Shown here: positions 33,434 to 61,451 of the stretch, one piece after another
Layout: each line of letters opens with the position of its first letter
Position numbering within the stretch: position 1 is the stretch's first letter
Source of the DNA: Bacteroidales bacterium
GTDB taxonomy: Bacteria > Bacteroidota > Bacteroidia > Bacteroidales > F082
Assembly: GCA_017632935.1 (NCBI GenBank)
Contig: JAGBQJ010000057.1
Location: 62,001 to 126,000 of the forward strand
Length of the DNA: 64,000 nucleotides
Direction: 5' to 3'
The notes under the pieces: model-generated
Database searches by the model: none
What the model was told of the DNA's origin: nothing
What the model saw: only the letters and a program-made list of their open reading frames with translations
Program-made: the position numbers and the translations under genes

Positions 33434-33488
33434 CGTATTATGGATTTTTGTTATTGACTAATTTGTTCTTCGTTCTTCGGGTTGGTGT

Positions 33489-33590
33489 ACTATGGCTGAT
33501 GGCTTATGGCCTATGGCCTGACCCACGAAAAGCTTTGGATTCCAATCTTTCGTTGGGACAAGCCATAGGCCATCGGCTATAGGCCATAGT
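33489..33590. repeat. ACTATGGCC-family long palindrome between pta and ackA
   Basis: A ~100-bp imperfect inverted repeat. Outer arms are ACTATGGCTGATGGCTTATG... and its complement ending CGGCTATAGGCCATAGT; the centre also pairs (ACGAAAAGCTTTGGA / TCCAATCTTTCGT). On the minus strand the element begins at the last base-overlap of the pta stop codon (TAACTATGGCC). Confidence 0.85.
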
Positions 33591-34597
33591 TACTTTTGTG
33601 CGATAGCCTGATTACACGTAATGGCCACCAGTTTGTAGACATCGTCAATCGAGCAGCCACGGCTGAGGTCGTTGCAGGGCTTGGCGAGACCTTGCAGCAC
33701 GGGACCGACAGCCTCGGCACCAGCCAGACGCTGGACAAGCTTATAGGCGATGTTACCCACTTCGAGGCAGGGGAACACAAGGGTATTGGCCTTGCCGGCG
33801 ACTTCGCTGCCGGGAGCCTTGCTTGAACCCACCGAAGGCACGATGGCGGCATCGGCTTGCAGCTCACCGTCGAGGACGAGGTCGGGACGGCGCTCCTTGG
33901 CGATGCGTGTGGCTTCGATGACCTTGTCGACCACCTCATGCTTGGCGCTGCCCTTGGTGGAGAAGCTCAGGATGGCGGTGACGGGGTCGATCTTGGCGAT
34001 GGCCTTGGCCGTGTCGGCGGTGCAGATGGCAATTTCGGCCAGCTGCTCAGCCGTCGGCATAGGCGTGACGGCGCAGTCGGCAAAGACCATGCGGCCGTTG
34101 GTGCCGTAAGGGCATCCCTCGGGCAGGAACATCGTGAAGGCGCCACTGACGCAGGTCACACCAGGAACGGTCTTGATGATCTGCAGGGCGGGACGGAGCA
34201 TGTCGCCCGTGGTGCTGCGGGCACCGCTGACGAGACCATCGGCTTCACCGGCTTTGACCATGAGGATGCCGAGATACATGAAGTTCTGTGCTAGGTCGTC
34301 GGCTTGCTCGGGGGTCATGCCTTTAGCCTTACGCAGTTCGTAAAGCAGGTCGGCATATTTCTGTTTGTCAGGGTTGTTCTTCGGGTCGATGATACGGGCC
34401 TTGTCGATGTTCTTCAGACCGAACTCGGCGGTCATCTCTTTGATCTTCTCGGCAGGGCCGATGAGGATGATATCGGCGACGCCGTCAGCCAAAAGACGGT
34501 CGGCGGCTTTCAGGGTACGGGGCTCGTCGCCCTCGGGGAGCACAATGCGCTGCTTGTTAGCCTGGGCATTGGCAATGATTTCTTGCATTAAATCCAT
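33590..34597 (-). CDS. pta: Phosphate acetyltransferase
   Basis: A 335-residue short-form Pta (no N-terminal regulatory domain) that converts acetyl-CoA and phosphate to acetyl phosphate. Conserved blocks include RIVLPEGDEPRTLKAADRL, GLVSGARSTTGDMLRPALQ, FADCAVTPMPTAEQLAEIA, LSFSTKGSAKH, DGELQADAAI and a last NTLVFPCLEVGNIAYK block. It is the first gene of the pta-ackA pair and has its own promoter at 34729-34760. The leader of ~130 nt is built largely of dispersed repeat sequences (34616-34720). Confidence 0.97.
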   Translation of the reverse strand: MDLMQEIIANAQANKQRIVLPEGDEPRTLKAADRLLADGVADIILIGPAEKIKEMTAEFGLKNIDKARIIDPKNNPDKQKYADLLYELRKAKGMTPEQADDLAQNFMYLGILMVKAGEADGLVSGARSTTGDMLRPALQIIKTVPGVTCVSGAFTMFLPEGCPYGTNGRMVFADCAVTPMPTAEQLAEIAICTADTAKAIAKIDPVTAILSFSTKGSAKHEVVDKVIEATRIAKERRPDLVLDGELQADAAIVPSVGSSKAPGSEVAGKANTLVFPCLEVGNIAYKLVQRLAGAEAVGPVLQGLAKPCNDLSRGCSIDDVYKLVAITCNQAIAQK

Positions 34598-41886: not shown

Positions 41887-42867
41887 ATGTACAAACTTGC
41901 CCATCTCGAATTCGAACATTATCCGCTGCTCCTCGCTCCCATGGAGGATGTCTCCGACCCGCCGTTCCGCTATGTCTGCAAGATGTTTGGCGCCGATGTG
42001 GTCTACTCGGAGTTCATCTCCGCTGACGGCCTCATCCGCGATTCGGTGAAGAGTATCAAGAAGCTGGATTTCGAGGAGTTTGAGCGGCCTGTGGGCATAC
42101 AGATCTTCGGCAACGCCGTCGACCCCATGGTAGAGGCGGCACGTTATGCCGAGACCGCCCACCCCGACATCATCGATATCAACTTCGGATGTCCCGTGAA
42201 GAAGGTAGCCTCGAAAGGCGCGGGCTCTGGCATCATGAATGACATCCCCAAGATGGTGGCCATCACCAAGGCTGTGGTGGCGGCGGTGAAGACCCCTGTG
42301 ACGGTGAAGACCCGCCTCGGCTACGACGACGCGCACCGGGAGATCGTTGACATCGCCGAACGCCTCCAAGATGTGGGCATCACCGCTTTGACCATACACG
42401 GCCGCCTGCGTACCACCAAATACAGTGAGCCCGCTGATTGGACGCTTATTGGTGAGGTGAAAAACAACCCGCGCATGCATATTCCCATCATCGGCAACGG
42501 TGACGTGGTGGACGGCCCCTCAGCCAAGTATTTCAAGGACACCTACGGTGTGGATGGCCTAATGATAGGCCGTGCCAGCTACGGCAACCCATGGATCTTC
42601 AGCCAGATCAGGCATTATTTGGAAACAGGGGAGGAGTTACCTTTGCCCGATGTGAAGGAGCGCGTGCGGGTCAGTAAGATTCATTTGAAGCGTTCCATCG
42701 AATGGAAGGGTGAGCACATCGCTTTATTGGAAATACGCAAGCACTGGGCTGCCTATTTCAAAGGGTTGCCTAACTTTAAACCGTTCAAGATGCGGTTAAT
42801 GAAAACGCTGGATGTCGAGGAAGTTTATGGGATTTTGGAGGAGATTCTTGATTGCTATGGTGTTTAA
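41887..42867 (+). CDS. dusB: tRNA-dihydrouridine synthase
   Basis: A 326-residue flavoenzyme that reduces uridines in the tRNA D-loop. The TIM-barrel motifs LLLAPMEDVSDPPFRYVCKM, VGIQIFGN and DIINFGCP-type block (DIINF is written DINFGCP here, catalytic Cys102), then AGSGIMNDIP, TVKTRLGYDD, LTIHGRLRTTKY and IIGNGDVVDGP, identify the Dus family; assignment to DusB rather than another subtype is by general similarity. A GRASYGNPWIF phosphate-binding block follows. Its TAA stop is embedded in the left inverted repeat of the four-helix-bundle element. Confidence 0.92.
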   Translation: MYKLAHLEFEHYPLLLAPMEDVSDPPFRYVCKMFGADVVYSEFISADGLIRDSVKSIKKLDFEEFERPVGIQIFGNAVDPMVEAARYAETAHPDIIDINFGCPVKKVASKGAGSGIMNDIPKMVAITKAVVAAVKTPVTVKTRLGYDDAHREIVDIAERLQDVGITALTIHGRLRTTKYSEPADWTLIGEVKNNPRMHIPIIGNGDVVDGPSAKYFKDTYGVDGLMIGRASYGNPWIFSQIRHYLETGEELPLPDVKERVRVSKIHLKRSIEWKGEHIALLEIRKHWAAYFKGLPNFKPFKMRLMKTLDVEEVYGILEEILDCYGV

Positions 42868-42912
42868 CTATGGCTTATGGCCTATGACTATGGCTGTTTT
42901 GACGGGGCTTTG
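42862..42912. repeat. Left terminal inverted repeat of the four-helix-bundle element
   Basis: Begins GTTTAACTATGG, contains CTATGACTATGGCTG and ends GGGGCTTTG. The complement of 43342-43401 shares all three blocks in the same order. The first block includes the dusB stop codon. Confidence 0.85.
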
Positions 42913-42968
42913 TGTTTTACGCTTTTATAAAGTGAAAAATAGTGTAAACAATTAAAATACATTGATTT

Positions 42969-43325
42969 ATGAGAAATTTTAGGAATTATGATGTCTGGAA
43001 TGCCGGAGTGGACTTCTCCGTTCATGTTTATGAATTAACCGAGCAATTTCCGAGAAAAGAATTGTACGCGCTTTGTGATCAGCTTCAAAGAGCCTCTGTA
43101 TCGATCCCTTCCAATATTGCCGAGGGCTGTTCAAGAAGGTCACAGAATGAATTTGCACACTTCCTTGAAATCTCATTAGGGTCATCATACGAAGTGGAAA
43201 CCCAAATGGAAATTGCACGCAGATTAAAATACGTGAAAGAAGAACAGTTTGAGGACATTATTACAGAAGTCCAATCCATAGAAAAAAGATTGACTAGCTT
43301 GATTAATACGGTTCGTCCTGAATAA
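42969..43325 (+). CDS. Four-helix bundle protein (S23/IVS-encoded family)
   Basis: A 118-residue, entirely helical protein with the family's typical pattern: YDVWNAGVDFSVHVYELTEQ, FPRKELYALCDQLQRASVSI, PSNIAEGCSRRSQNEFAHFL, EISLGSSYEVETQMEIARRL, then a final helix. This family is known from intervening sequences in 23S rRNA genes and is related in fold to Avd of diversity-generating retroelements; the molecular role is unknown. The gene is flanked on both sides by inverted repeats (42862-42912 and 43342-43401) that reach exactly into the stop codons of the neighbouring genes. That arrangement suggests a compact mobile unit. Confidence 0.88.
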   Translation: MRNFRNYDVWNAGVDFSVHVYELTEQFPRKELYALCDQLQRASVSIPSNIAEGCSRRSQNEFAHFLEISLGSSYEVETQMEIARRLKYVKEEQFEDIITEVQSIEKRLTSLINTVRPE

Positions 43326-43341
43326 CCTAAAGAAAAAGAGA

Positions 43342-43401
43342 CAAAGCCCCTTCATCCCGTGGCCACTGGCCATCAGCCATAGTCATAGGCCATAGTTAAA
43401 C
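43342..43401. repeat. Right terminal inverted repeat of the four-helix-bundle element
   Basis: Starts CAAAGCCCC, contains CAGCCATAGTCATAG and ends CCATAGTTAAAC, the complement of the left arm, with ~10 extra bases near GTGGCCACTGGCC. The last bases include the stop codon of the HAD gene. Confidence 0.85.
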
Positions 43402-44040
43402 TACTCCCTCTTTCAAAACCCCATTCACAAACAAGTTCCTTACCAGTTCATCACGACGAATATGATACGTATTGATGCCCAATGACTTGGCGACCTTAAT
43501 GTTTTCTGCTGTGTCATCAATAAATAAGGTTTCTTCGGGCAGCAGACCTTCATGGTCAAGAATCAGCTCAAAGAAGCGCGGGTCGGGTTTTTCCAGGTGC
43601 TCGGCAAAGGAGAAATACGATTTGTTAAAGAGTTCGTCAAACTCGTTATAGCCGAAGCGTAGTTGCAAATCCCTGACGTAGAGGTCGTAATGAATGACAT
43701 TGGAATTGCTCATCAAGAAAATCTTGTAGTGCTTCTTCACCTTCTCAATAGCTTCTATACGCTCGCGAGGGATGTCCAAGAGCATGGAATTCCAAATGGC
43801 ATCGAATTTCTGGTCGGTCATCTTCTCCTGTCCGAGGAGAGTTTTCATGCGCTTTCGGAAGGTGGGGGCGGTGTAGACACCGATATCGAATTTGCTAAAA
43901 ATGTCCATAAACTCCTTTGAACGAGCTAATTCCGATGTATTGATGCCCATTTTTTCGAGTTCTTTGTATACGATGTTTTCGTCGATGTCGAGGATGACGC
44001 CGCCGAGGTCGAAGATGATATTCTTGATTTTCGCGCTCAT
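43396..44040 (-). CDS. HAD superfamily hydrolase, subfamily IA
   Basis: A 214-residue phosphatase-like protein. Motif I is IIFDLGGVILDID with nucleophile Asp11; as in YihX-like enzymes the second acidic position is Gly in DLGGV. Motif II is FLMSNSN, motif III includes the Lys in EKPDPRFF, and motif IV is LFIDDTAENI. Members of this branch dephosphorylate sugar phosphates such as glucose 1-phosphate; the substrate here is not known. Its stop codon is formed within the right inverted repeat of the neighbouring element. Confidence 0.88.
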   Translation of the reverse strand: MSAKIKNIIFDLGGVILDIDENIVYKELEKMGINTSELARSKEFMDIFSKFDIGVYTAPTFRKRMKTLLGQEKMTDQKFDAIWNSMLLDIPRERIEAIEKVKKHYKIFLMSNSNVIHYDLYVRDLQLRFGYNEFDELFNKSYFSFAEHLEKPDPRFFELILDHEGLLPEETLFIDDTAENIKVAKSLGINTYHIRRDELVRNLFVNGVLKEGVV

Positions 44041-46560: not shown

Positions 46561-46655
46561 CTATGGCCTATAGCTTATGGCCAATGGCTCGCTTCACCCA
46601 ATGCGCGAATTTAGCGCCTTTGGCAGTAGCGAGCCATAAGCCATCGGCCATAGTA
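46559..46655. repeat. ACTATGGCC-family long palindrome after thiL
   Basis: Left arm ACTATGGCCTATAGCTTATG... through GGCTCGCT; right arm AGCGAGCCATAAGCC...GGCCATAGT; about 35-bp imperfect arms around a ~30-bp centre. The first bases overlap the thiL TGA stop. Confidence 0.8.
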
Positions 46656-59800: not shown

Positions 59801-61451
59801 CGTTCTTCATCATCAGGTTCCAGATGGGCATCTTGGTGTTGACGGTGGTACCTTTCAGTAGTTTGGTTACCAATACCTTAGGCGCGTTGATGCCTTGGTC
59901 GGAGAACTCACCGACTTGGTAGACCTCGTCGGAGCCCACGATGGTGTATTGGTAGGCAACGGCCAGGGTCTGGTTGGCGTTGAGGCTGACATTCAAGGAG
60001 ATGAAGCCCAACTTCGAGTTGAGTGAGAACTCAGTGTTGCTCAGGCGGCGGGCGTTCTCCACTTTCTCGAAGTCGCGGCCCGACACCATGTAGCCCGAAC
60101 GACCAATACGCATGGGGTCATTGCTCATGTAGTTGGTCACCGTGCTGATGTTGCGGATTTGGGTCGTGTCCATGCGGGTGACCAAGTTGTTGGCCGCATT
60201 GCGTGGATATACCTTGCTGTTGGTCGGGTAAACTTCAGGGTTGTAGATCCATGCGTCTTTACCTTCGCCCAAGTCATTCAAAGCGAGTATATTACGTGTG
60301 TTTTGCGTTGAAGTGTTGGTATTGGTGATCCACACCTCGATTTTGGTGATGTTGATGCTTGAGGTGATGGTGGGCAACGTCGACAAGGCGGTCTCATATT
60401 GGTCGCGGAAGTATTGGCTGAGGAAGAAGTGCCGGTTTTCCTCATAGTCCAAGCAGCTGAGTTCGAACTGGTTGGTCTGTGCGCCGCCTTGCACGGTGAT
60501 GTTTTGTGACTCGCTCTCTTGATAGGAAACGATGGACGACACGGTGGTCTTGCCGAACTTCAGTTTCGACTTCACGCCGAACAGCTGTTGCGTGCCCGTG
60601 ATGAGGGTGCTGTTGAGCGGGAAGCTGACGTTACCGGCTTCGAGAAGCTGGATGATTTCGTCTTCCTTGCCTTGGTATTTCAGGTCGAGTTTGTCCTGAT
60701 AGTTGAAGGTCGCCTTGGTGTTCTTGTTGATGTTGAAGTTGATCTTGTCGCCGATTTTGGCAATCACGTTGAGTTGGATGTCCTGTTCGAAGACGAAGTC
60801 GTTGTGGCGTTTGCGGCGATCGGTCATTGAGGGGTCGTCGCGGAAGCTGTGCTTGAAGCCGAAGGTGAGGTCGACGGAGCCTTGGGGACGGATGTCGATG
60901 GTGTTGCTACCGAAGATGGTCTCAAAGGCCTTGCCGCCCACATACAGCGGTGGGATGATGGAGTTGCCGTTGGTGGTCGACCGTGCGTTTTGGCTGCGGC
61001 GTTCTTTCCAGTATTCTTGTATGCCTTTACGGTTTTTGTACTCGAAATACTCGCTTTGCGTGAGGGTGGTGGGCGTGTCGTAGTAGAACTGGCCGATGCG
61101 GCGTTTGAAGGTGTATTGTCCGGTCAGGGGGTCGTAGATGATTTCGGTGTTGAAGTTGTCGGGGTCGTTGAGGTAGAGAGGTGACTTGTTGTTAAGGTCT
61201 TGCAAAGGGTTGCCTGTGTTGACGGGGATGGGGTAGACCATCTTGGTTGTGTCAGGCTCGACGGTGTAGGGGGTAAAGAAAATGTCATACTTGTCTGCTG
61301 CTGTCACACAGAGCGATGGCGATAAGAATAACGCAAGAAGGAAAAGAATTATGAATGCTGAATGCTGAATGCTGAAATGCCATGCTTTGCCCTTATTCTG
61401 CATTCTGCATTCTACATTCTGCATTTCTATATCTTTGTTATATATATTCAT
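53859..61451 (-). CDS. sprA: T9SS outer-membrane translocon protein SprA (Sov)
   Basis: A ~2530-residue protein, in the size range of known SprA/Sov, the very large outer-membrane beta-barrel through which T9SS cargo leaves the cell. Family signs: YDIFFTPYTVEPDTTKMVYP at the mature N-terminus, YFRYKNRKGIQ-like EYFEYKNRKGIQEYW, GKLYINLGDISEDILRDGRK, GRSGYMVSGRDF, YFGMNTATGWSPG and a final TYGGITIRLSLAQ strand. The signal peptide core is FIILFLLALFLSPSLCVTA, but the preceding ~30 residues (MQNVECRMQN, HFSIQHSAF) are encoded by a palindromic repeat (61350-61427). Two Lys/Asp-rich low-complexity loops lie near residues ~1700 and ~2020. It begins 5 bp after ruvA. Confidence 0.95.
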   Translation of the reverse strand: MNIYNKDIEMQNVECRMQNKGKAWHFSIQHSAFIILFLLALFLSPSLCVTAADKYDIFFTPYTVEPDTTKMVYPIPVNTGNPLQDLNNKSPLYLNDPDNFNTEIIYDPLTGQYTFKRRIGQFYYDTPTTLTQSEYFEYKNRKGIQEYWKERRSQNARSTTNGNSIIPPLYVGGKAFETIFGSNTIDIRPQGSVDLTFGFKHSFRDDPSMTDRRKRHNDFVFEQDIQLNVIAKIGDKINFNINKNTKATFNYQDKLDLKYQGKEDEIIQLLEAGNVSFPLNSTLITGTQQLFGVKSKLKFGKTTVSSIVSYQESESQNITVQGGAQTNQFELSCLDYEENRHFFLSQYFRDQYETALSTLPTITSSINITKIEVWITNTNTSTQNTRNILALNDLGEGKDAWIYNPEVYPTNSKVYPRNAANNLVTRMDTTQIRNISTVTNYMSNDPMRIGRSGYMVSGRDFEKVENARRLSNTEFSLNSKLGFISLNVSLNANQTLAVAYQYTIVGSDEVYQVGEFSDQGINAPKVLVTKLLKGTTVNTKMPIWNLMMKNVYNIRAYQIGSQDFMLNIFYNGNSNSTPYGYFTEGSVKGVALLHLMGLDNLTTQNNPIAGGDGVFDFLDHASTQGGTINSSNGRIFFPVLEPFGKHIHEKVFPDEPNLANKYAYDSLYTMTKTSAEQYSEKNKFSLKGYYSSQSGSEISLNAMNVAQGSVTVTAGGVQLVENVDYTVDYTLGRVTILNEGILNSGTPINISLESNNSFSAIRKTFLGTRVEHEFDKDFHAGATVLYLGEKSYTQKINYGEEAIANTIYGADVSYHTEARWLTSFINALPGISTKAPSRINVDGEFARFIPGLSKSASEPGTSYIDDFEGAKSTIDLRLPTLWNLASTPQNQTDLFPEAAANTGLNYGKNRAKLAWYVIDNSVFYDRNSNYRPKNVDNEELSKNSVRQVLETELFPNKDIETGTQTNISVLNLAYYPEERGPYNYDVDPTAYSAGINENGKLKDPKSRWGGIMRKMESIDFEATNIEYIEFWLMDPFADEEFADNPGKLYINLGDISEDILRDGRKFYENGLPTTATVENVDTTMWGRVPIMQDLVGTFSNSSEARQYQDVGYDGLRDEDERSFFEETYLNIVRDRFGEGSGAYSKAYDDPSADNYHYFRSADWDSPDDEVHRSILERYKLYNGPDGNSPADIQQTEGYQSSNSTLPNAEDINGDNTLSESERYYQYEIDLNPAKMVPGQNHIADVFHSGGVSLPNGQISGVTWYQFRIPVRQPDKVVGHIADYSSIRFMRMFVTDFQKPIVLRFATLDLVKGEWRTYSQSIQAPGEYEPNDVSNETTFDISAVSIDENSRRVPVPYVTPPGIQQERVIGMTQTVRINEQALQMTVQNLVDGDGRAIYKTADFDLRQYKYLKMFVHAEAAQEDSPLDDQDLTVFMRIGTDFTENYYEYEVPLKVTPWGTAYTNDVAIWPEINNIDIRLEDLVEVKQRRNEAMNQPNSNVRLNYIYSEKKKKGTVDNKDYYHTIKVIGNPSISDVEAMMIGIRNPKRQNLADTDDGQPKSAVVWVNELRLTDLNSNGGVAATGRIEATLADLGRMSVNGSYSSAGFGALDSRITSNTFEARSAFNVATDLELGKFLPNTGLKIPMHIDYGQNKITPLYNPYDPDIKLNDALAAMNSDEERTEFTSTIHDFTQQKNINFMNVRKERVTKKREGEGGKGKKDDKGKDKEKDKEKDNPRDPNKGGGRGNVPRIHFYDIENFNLSFAYNETFQENTDIKSFLSKTYRGGLGYNFAGNPKPVEPFAKAKWASKPAWQIIKDINFYYAPKTITFNTEMYRFSSEREMRNKSGGIINIIPTYSKQWDWTRNYQLRYDLTKGLTFDYSAQAQAYIYEPAGFVDKSVDPETWQKNQDTIKAELKNLGSVSRYTQNFNANYTLPINKIPIFNWITANATYQGTYNWTAAAKSIQDRLGNAIDNSSNIQGNATLDFTKLYNKVDYLKQVNSPQRRNDGKNNSRDKGNKDNKKDSKDKKDAKDKDDKEGGRPADSTKTTPKTNYGKIVLDNSLRILTLVKKVSGTYSIQQGQTLPGFMPKTDYFGMNTATGWSPGVGFVLGSNFGSDANIYDKAVLHSIGVEDAQRWLTTDSILNAPYIRRRTETMTYRVNTEPLPGIKIDLTGNRNYAESQQHYFRYNGTTDMFDVFTPTNSGNFSMSYFMAATAFVTSDSTSSRLFDNLLDNRKIIAERIARNNPLWIEQVNEYVYDSLAGDYFPKGYGSSSMDVLLYSFIAAYTGRDANTLSLNPFPNIPLPNWNLTYNGLTNIPSINKLFKTVSITHGYKSNYAINAWASNVYFDEDNPIQTYENSDVIIPKYDMTQIVLNEQFMPLVGIDLGLQNSMTINLQYKKSRTLTLSFSNNQLTEVNGREIVIGGGYRIKNLSFNVVPIGGDGKAQTIKNDLVLKLDIGFKKDITILRRIDENNNQVSAGNNKINFYLTGDYNFSQRLSAQAFFKYDLSIPEVANTFRNSTTYGGITIRLSLAQ
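61350..61427. repeat. ATTCAGCATTC/ATTCTGCATTC palindromic repeat at the sprA start
   Basis: Plus strand: GAATGCTGAATGCTGAATGC arm and ATTCTGCATTCTGCATTC arm around ATGCCATGCTTTGCCCTT. On the coding strand it encodes the n-region of the SprA signal peptide, including several possible ATG codons. Confidence 0.85.

Follow-up and report, generated by a model that had tools for sequence, protein, structure and literature searches.

A putative compact single-gene element: an S23/IVP gene bounded by inverted short-repeat arrays in a Bacteroidales genome

Intervening sequences (IVSs) that carry an open reading frame (ORF) of the S23 family are found in the 23S rRNA of Coxiella as well as of other bacteria. 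In Coxiella, the S23 gene lies between terminal inverted repeats in helix 45 of the 23S rRNA; the IVS has been called selfish, its mobility was proposed long ago, and its termini are cleaved by RNase III (PMC4990558). IVP ORFs are also scattered in rRNA insertions of CPR bacteria, and the corresponding family PF05635 is widespread and described as functionally uncharacterized (PMC11270868). Furthermore, IVP is among the functions found in cas loci (PMC3936711), and Avd, a protein of DGR systems, works in retrohoming (PMC10053308).

Two further systems are relevant for the repeats described here. REPIN/RAYT systems combine a gene with its own class of repeats, which also occur as dispersed hairpins devoid of the gene (PMC3116915). 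Heptameric repeats of the type GGGNATC are mostly intergenic in Xanthomonas and Nostoc, and those of Xanthomonas often form convergent pairs, of which two genomes contain 70 and 75 (PMC4692102), while TAACTGA repeats occur in Beggiatoaceae, cyanobacteria and Bacteroidetes (PMC4679880). The term “S23” is absent from the main texts of the latter two papers, and the parts of them available to us name no gene as the source of the repeats. Among the matches listed in a search of the open-access literature, a scope that subscription papers mostly fall outside, no paper links S23 with heptamer arrays.

Anatomy of the element between dusB and the HAD gene

The window, i.e., the whole 64-kb stretch of DNA analysed here, spans C50:62001-126000; the genome comprises 2.86 Mb on 62 contigs, and the S23 locus of the window is labelled L001. 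The element sits outside rRNA between two convergent protein genes, dusB on the left (41887..42867, forward strand; TIGR00737 310.7 bits, cut-off 293.3) and a gene for a HAD-family hydrolase on the right (43396..44040, reverse strand; PF00702). It comprises a left arm (42855..42925, forward strand), an S23/IVP gene encoding a four-helix-bundle protein of 118 amino acids (42969..43325, forward strand) and a right arm (43329..43401, reverse strand), which is an inverted copy of the left one. The left arm consists of a degenerate 7-nt array (CTATGGC/TTATGGC/CTATGAC) and an inner GGGGCTTTG stretch.

A first-pass annotation of the sequence had proposed that the gene lies between inverted arms sharing several words. 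This is confirmed by two perfectly paired blocks, one of 21 nt (42876-42896 with 43374-43394, 100% complementary in the inverted-arm alignment) and one of 13 nt (GTTTAACTATGGC), and by CTATGGCCTATGACTATGGCT, which at up to 3 mismatches occurs within the 64 kb in the two arms only, two matches being found in 0 of 100 shuffles. The inner arm parts (42900-42925 and 43329-43354) are 77% complementary. The short words GTTTAACTATGG (up to 1 mismatch) and GGGGCTTTG (exact) likewise occur twice in the 64 kb; since 2 and 8 of 100 shuffles, respectively, also give two occurrences, these words on their own are weaker support than CTATGGCCTATGACTATGGCT. The inverted match of the window arms is strong, and their own 7-nt periodicity score is modest.

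The annotation had let the left arm start at 42862, inside the stop codon of dusB; the arm extends slightly further out, to about 42855, and its sequence is that of a degenerate tandem array. It covers the last codons and the stop of dusB, the right arm likewise covers the HAD stop codon, and both stop codons indeed lie within the outer 12 nt of the arms. This is no fixed rule, however: in element-bearing relatives the dusB stop is TAA, TGA or TAG and lies in or beside the arm. The assignment of gene-less hairpins in the window to the same repeat family was correct, as a pattern search found inverted pairs of the CTATGGC family without a gene at about 33486..33593 (a hairpin) and at about 46563..46651 (C50:108563-108651). 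Another gene-less hairpin (61345..61430) belongs to a different heptamer family, GAATGCT, a type found around the S23 locus L005 (GAATGCG).

The S23 protein matches PF05635 (E 1.8e-38; 131.5 bits, cut-off 33.8) and TIGR02436 (23S_rRNA_IVP; 132 bits, cut-off 24), and its nearest named relatives stem from uncultured Bacteroidales, several of them from ruminants. The RxxxSxxxNxxE motif, which is named for the S23/IVP family in PMC3936711, is present, and R41, S45, N49 and E52 are invariant in an alignment of 9 sequences. Homologue structures (2gsc, 2rld) comprise five chains each, and the title of a reference in PMC3936711 names a five-bundle assembly of Xcc0516. No catalytic domain was found in the protein: the only Pfam matches are PF05635 and, below its cut-off of 40, PF22296 (27.1), and thus the match expected of a Y1 (HUH) transposase is lacking. 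With the DGR Avd profile NF033474 the protein scores 25.5 bits and stays under the cut-off of 80; as judged from sequence, the S23 family is a distant homologue of Avd. Purifying selection on the S23 protein is strong. Between L001 and its relative L037 in genome G088, 1 nonsynonymous change stands against 38 synonymous ones (dN/dS ~0.004), and other close S23 pairs yield dN/dS values of 0.02-0.25, some of which are based on few changes, with several pairs being synonymous-saturated.

The complementary termini of the window element are able to form a stem, the RNA fold of the element has a z score of -4.94, and the stretch 42800-43450 gave no Rfam match at the gathering score. The fold would suit an IVS acting at the RNA level: once transcribed, the arms would pair into a stem that RNase III removes, such that the insert is neutral within operons; S23 would then bind the excised RNA, and the element would spread by RNA-borne copying or homologous recombination only. 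The terminal inverted repeats cleaved by RNase III in Coxiella (PMC4990558) and the role of the homologue Avd in retrohoming (PMC10053308) provide precedents, and at 56 of 98 best-scoring genus loci both neighbours are on the S23 strand. On the other hand, the window element is placed between convergent genes, and several near-complete, S23-rich genomes (G065, G055, G043, G092, G078) are devoid of a PF00078 hit; overall, we consider this RNA-level reading unlikely. A dependence on a resident reverse transcriptase, by analogy to Avd, found no support: PF00078 is hit in 56 of the 99 genus genomes, but PF00078-negative genomes such as those named here hold 5-8 S23 genes, and the enzyme therefore appears dispensable.

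Recurrence of S23 genes with inverted arms

The window's own genome contains 7 PF05635 matches, five of which (L001-L005) are flanked by inverted arms of the CTATGGC, TTGAATT, GTTTAGA, GTGTGGA and GAATGCG types (L004 by eye), and two of which (L006, L007) are not. Of the 99 genus genomes, 96 yield a PF05635 match, which exceeds the cut-off in 94. The first-pass annotation had named two outcomes that would speak against its reading, namely a gene and arms conserved at this one locus in all relatives without further gene-bearing copies, or arms that always occur singly as terminators; neither was observed, and gene-bearing copies are many, as the counts for the own genome and the genus illustrate. 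It had also regarded carriage by a repeat element as unusual, whereas such carriage turned out to be common in Bacteroidota and on cyanobacterial plasmids.

From 103 S23 frames of the genus, 100 were kept (the L007 frames and one duplicate being taken out), and 99 had flanks of sufficient length; these loci are the best-scoring among the matches listed and no random draw. A single inverted-repeat test was used throughout, with 120-nt flanks, allowing no more than 2 equally good results among 200 shuffles. It was passed by 95 of the 99 best-scoring genus loci, by 40 of 65 further named loci from Flavobacteriales, Cytophagales, Saprospiraceae, Chitinophagaceae and other groups (25 fail), and by 18 of 24 plasmid loci, mostly cyanobacterial (6 fail). 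The named set of 80 loci was reduced to 65 by the 15 already included in the genus set, and all 80 give 54-56 passes in two runs with random shuffles; the plasmid set covers 24 of 36 S23 places and includes the near copies L363/L377 and L361/L378. Among control ORFs, 12-13 of 278 from the own genome pass, including one RAYT-like ORF and the S23 genes L002 and L003, which had been left in this set, and only 1 of 61 ORFs from cyanobacterial plasmids does, a cas4 gene adjoining an S23 element. In an evenly drawn phylum set, the signal is weaker: the inverted repeat exceeds all 50 shuffles in 15 of the best 30 loci, and both flanks are periodic in 2 (period 7) or 4 (period 8) of the 30.

The flanks of the genes are built from short tandem units. 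Across the 100 best-scoring genus loci the identity at lag 7 is 0.403 upstream and 0.424 downstream versus 0.276 in the gene and 0.25 further upstream, and lags 14 and 21 also peak. Heptad periodicity in both flanks lies beyond all 60 shuffles at 71 of 99 best-scoring genus loci. At a fixed cut-off, period 7 in both flanks is found at 58 of these 99 and at 31 of the 80 named S23 loci versus 5 of 987 control ORFs, 2 of which are S23-like by eye. The arms differ in sequence between loci, and the inverted similarity of the units is 0.76 within a best-scoring genus locus versus 0.40 between loci. Most units are 7 nt long, within a range of 6-9: the best period is 6 for 14 upstream and 18 downstream flanks of the named loci, 8 in some phylum loci and 8-9 in some plasmid loci. 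A comparison of matched and mismatched arms (the matched pair ranks first in 14 of 101 cases and exceeds the 99th percentile of the mismatched ones in 3 of 101) carries no information, since units shared between loci are frequent and coding flanks are common to some of them.

S23 relatives were present in 33 plasmid records, 31 of them cyanobacterial by name. The arrays are of the GGGAGTA type in Nostoc edaphicum and of the GGGTGTA type in Calothrix, and Azospirillum also harbours a 7-nt pair. On a Pseudanabaena plasmid, (AAAAGCT)n and (AAAAGCC)n lie right beside the S23 gene in direct orientation; an inverted match appears only further out (IR 41 with 250-nt flanks), and the 120-nt test failed. 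Direct arrays adjoin the S23 gene at L360, L367 (Gemmatirosa) and L372. At L357, L360 and L362, on cyanobacterial plasmids, S23 genes with 7- or 8-nt arrays are flanked by cas6 and cas4 or form part of a cmr operon. Carriage of the element by phages was rejected, as one scan and one alignment revealed no S23 relative in viral contigs.

Occupied, empty and rearranged sites

Sites without the element are found in relatives at dusB-HAD, at capD-wecB and on Nostoc plasmids. At dusB, 50 loci were read, 39 of which had dusB and HAD on the same stretch, and 34 of these are on the tree; off the tree, L076, L078, L084, L086 and L087 have short spacers without an element. By eye, S23 with arms is present at 6 of the 34 tree loci and a gene-less hairpin of the family at 3; 9 loci are empty, 11 hold an ATTCCC hairpin and 5 are of other kinds. 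The tree requires 15 state changes over seven states. The S23 gene is oriented forward at L038, L068 and L074 and in reverse at L052, L054 and L063. No hairpin is present at the nine sites called empty, and in some empty relatives the ends of dusB and HAD overlap. The empty dusB-HAD sites for which the first-pass annotation had recommended a search thus exist (9 of 34), and gene and arms, being together in only 6 of 34, are not fixed at the locus.

Two of the gene-less hairpins are informative. When L056 is aligned with L054, and L048 with L068, the shorter locus of each pair retains both arms and lacks about 450-470 nt in the gene part. Judging from these alignments, L056 and L048 look like internal deletions, which for these two loci supports the earlier proposal that the short hairpins are internally deleted copies; the third gene-less locus, L064, is shorter than either. 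The reverse S23 copy at L063 is nested among empty relatives on the tree. Over codons 1-300 of its dusB, identity to the empty sisters L066 and L069 amounts to 93-98% in 100-nt bins, but the last dusB codons and the HAD end do not match them (last HAD bin 0.81-0.83). For this reason, L063 may have gained the element by homologous recombination from an element-bearing relative rather than by transposition.

An unrelated ATTCCC..GGGAAT element with the inner stem GCGGCGGC/GCCGCCGC occupies the dusB-HAD site in 11 loci. It is accompanied by a small ORF, presumably GIY-YIG-like (a label given by eye), in L040 (G066), L043 (G052) and L059 (G095), and it has no ORF in L041, L042, L044, L045, L047, L049, L053 and L061. 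In L040, two hairpin copies in direct orientation flank the ORF.

Members of one S23 clade, with proteins 80-89% identical, have GAGTTTA arms in common at four unrelated sites (L003; L146 and L132, which share one site; L147; L139), and the similarity stops at the outer arm ends. Between two genes of the own genome, which we take to be capD and wecB, the insert is 520 nt long, versus 2 nt between the same genes in G090 (L331; stop, TT, ATG). Among 29 other genus loci read for this site, L331 is the one that is empty and has both genes, most have a different upstream neighbour, and at L345 an upstream end as at capD-wecB is followed by a short spacer without S23. The Nostoc plasmid loci L361 and L368 are reciprocal empty sites with flanks 92-99.7% identical, and the Nostoc insertions follow the stop codon of one gene and precede the ATG of its downstream neighbour. 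No array is present at the empty capD-wecB and Nostoc sites. Target-site duplications, another item on the first-pass list of checks, did not materialize convincingly: none is clear at dusB or capD-wecB, and a repeated TTCTA at the Nostoc insertion L378 is a possible duplication, which is suggestive only.

The heptamer hairpins could be older, unrelated intergenic repeats, grown by slippage or serving as terminators, into which S23 genes insert as landing pads in the way IVSs enter rRNA hairpins. Arrays and gene-less hairpins are indeed common without S23, and the Coxiella IVS resides in helix 45 of the 23S rRNA (PMC4990558). Yet the four unrelated sites have the same arms together with the same S23 clade while the flanks beyond differ, the empty capD-wecB and Nostoc sites contain no array, and the nine empty dusB sites contain no hairpin; we therefore find pre-existing landing pads quite improbable. 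Even less can be said for S23 as an ordinary resident gene with plain bidirectional terminators as arms, where the arm-lineage correlation would reflect shared descent only. The strong purifying selection would fit a resident gene, as would the common flanks in 261 of 433 locus pairs at >=70% protein identity among the best-scoring genus loci. Nevertheless, such arms are rare around control ORFs, gene and arms are common to non-orthologous sites, and the element is present or absent and occurs in both orientations at dusB. Because of the empty sites, this reading is already largely refuted, and we regard it as highly improbable.

Repeat units, S23 lineages and dispersed arrays

The array unit follows the S23 lineage. 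Over 18 non-orthologous genus sites, to which 62 loci passing the periodicity filter were reduced, S23 identity correlates with unit similarity (Mantel r 0.53, reached in 0 of 2000 permutations, the largest being 0.34). When 19 loci from outside the genus were added (those of 61 named loci that passed the filter, entered without reduction to independent sites), r rises to 0.66 over 37, with a largest permuted value of 0.28. The types RGCTNTA, TTGGCT and GTTGACT recur in the S23 clade nearest the window protein, from Bacteroidales to Flavobacteriales and Cytophagales. The agreement between unit and lineage can be due to shared descent of gene and arms as a unit; that non-coding units stay recognisable from Bacteroidales to Cytophagales suggests constraint. 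In a group of 12 loci at one site (including L019, L024, L027, L033 and L090-L093) the unit is TCAGC or TAAGC, a one-base difference between loci. The switch affects both arms of a locus together and is a case of concerted evolution of the two arms.

Arrays also occur away from S23 genes. The array pattern ATGGCYN (up to 2 mismatches) has 34 matches in the own genome versus 0 for the reversed control. By eye, the matches form nine convergent pairs of one polarity, one around S23 and eight gene-less, plus seven further unpaired places, some of other unit types. Every stretch sampled contains 1-15 period-7 arrays per 100 kb, and G079 and G018 show them at ordinary density without a PF05635 match (MAGs, 82% and 72% complete). 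The CTATGGC-type pattern has a median of 28.5 in 14 genomes with the window S23 clade versus 16 in 85 without it (p 0.06), hence no clear excess, in a comparison that is blunt because the pattern also catches neighbouring unit types. A dependence of the arrays on an S23 gene in the same genome was thus unsupported, given G079 and G018 and the frequency of the pattern without the window clade; arrays can be present in a genome that lacks an S23 gene of this clade.

In G000 C5 (L163-L167) and G029 C8 (L228-L235), period-8 arrays equal or outnumber those of period 7. Small ORFs resembling GxxExxY/PDDEXK_3 lie between inverted repeats at L250:939-1361 and L254:750-1154, the latter with an 8-nt period, and may be a further single-gene cargo arranged in this way; the window's own genome has no match to PF13366. 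In the same genome, a RAYT-like Y1 transposase ORF is located between inverted repeats (L164:15790-16356). The names GxxExxY, RAYT-like and, for the additional control ORFs, S23 are presumptive, having been assigned by eye.

A probable compact single-gene element and its relation to known systems

We think it probable that the dusB-HAD locus holds a compact single-gene element, in which an S23/IVP gene is bounded by terminal inverted repeats made of degenerate 6-9-nt (mostly 7-nt) arrays, gene and arms evolve as a unit, and S23 recognises its own arrays. The first-pass annotation had arrived at a compact element with terminal inverted repeats and a four-helix-bundle cargo, a view supported by the empty sites, the same arms at four unrelated sites and the recurrence of the layout. 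It was largely right; what it missed are the 7-nt arrays that follow the S23 lineage and the spread of the element far beyond this locus. Beyond the observed anatomy, recurrence, agreement of unit and S23 lineage, presence and absence at sites and purifying selection, we infer the binding of repeats, the bridging of ends and any catalysis.

Gains, losses, inversions and internal deletions would affect gene and arms as a unit, and the element would settle in gaps bordered by the stop codon of one gene and the start or stop codon of its neighbour. S23, as the five-bundle assembly seen in a solved homologue, would recognise its own repeat arrays, either as DNA ends or as an RNA hairpin of the transcript, and bring the two ends of the element together, whereupon a host or trans-acting enzyme would cut and join them. 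Hairpins without the gene, and arrays belonging to these repeat families, would represent REPIN-like derivatives or substrates.

A broader proposal is tentative, and we hold it to be possible but doubtful: S23/IVP proteins might be specificity factors of widespread, nuclease-less minimal mobile elements with telomere-like ends of short tandem repeats, each S23 lineage reading one 6-9-nt unit, and S23 activity, past or in trans, might have given rise to, and dispersed, the heptanucleotide repeats found in cyanobacteria, in Bacteroidota and perhaps in Xanthomonas. The S23 element would then be a possible source of heptamer repeats in several bacterial groups. The pairing of gene and repeat through lineage-specific units links the uncharacterized family PF05635 to heptamer repeats that lack an assigned origin in the available parts of the papers describing them, and it thereby renders both the function of the family and the origin of the heptamers testable. 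Moreover, elements of S23 and arrays may offer an ordinary reason for the S23 genes in cas operons (L357, L360, L362) and thereby account for the listing of IVP among cas-locus functions (PMC3936711).

Compared to the IVSs of 23S rRNA, the element likewise has an S23 family gene between terminal inverted repeats, but it resides between protein genes outside rRNA, its arms are tandem 7-nt arrays, and it occurs in several copies per genome along with dispersed gene-less hairpins. DGR Avd is a distant homologue, although the NF033474 and PF22296 scores are under cut-off. With the heptamers of Xanthomonas and Nostoc and the TAACTGA repeats, the arrays share the unit length and the mostly intergenic location. 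As in REPIN/RAYT systems, inverted doublets of the gene-flanking repeat are dispersed in the genome (eight gene-less and the S23 copy, by eye), whereas S23 is a four-helix bundle and not an HUH transposase, and the ends are tandem heptamers and not REPs. In these terms, the element is of the IVS type outside rRNA, with a REPIN/RAYT-like layout.
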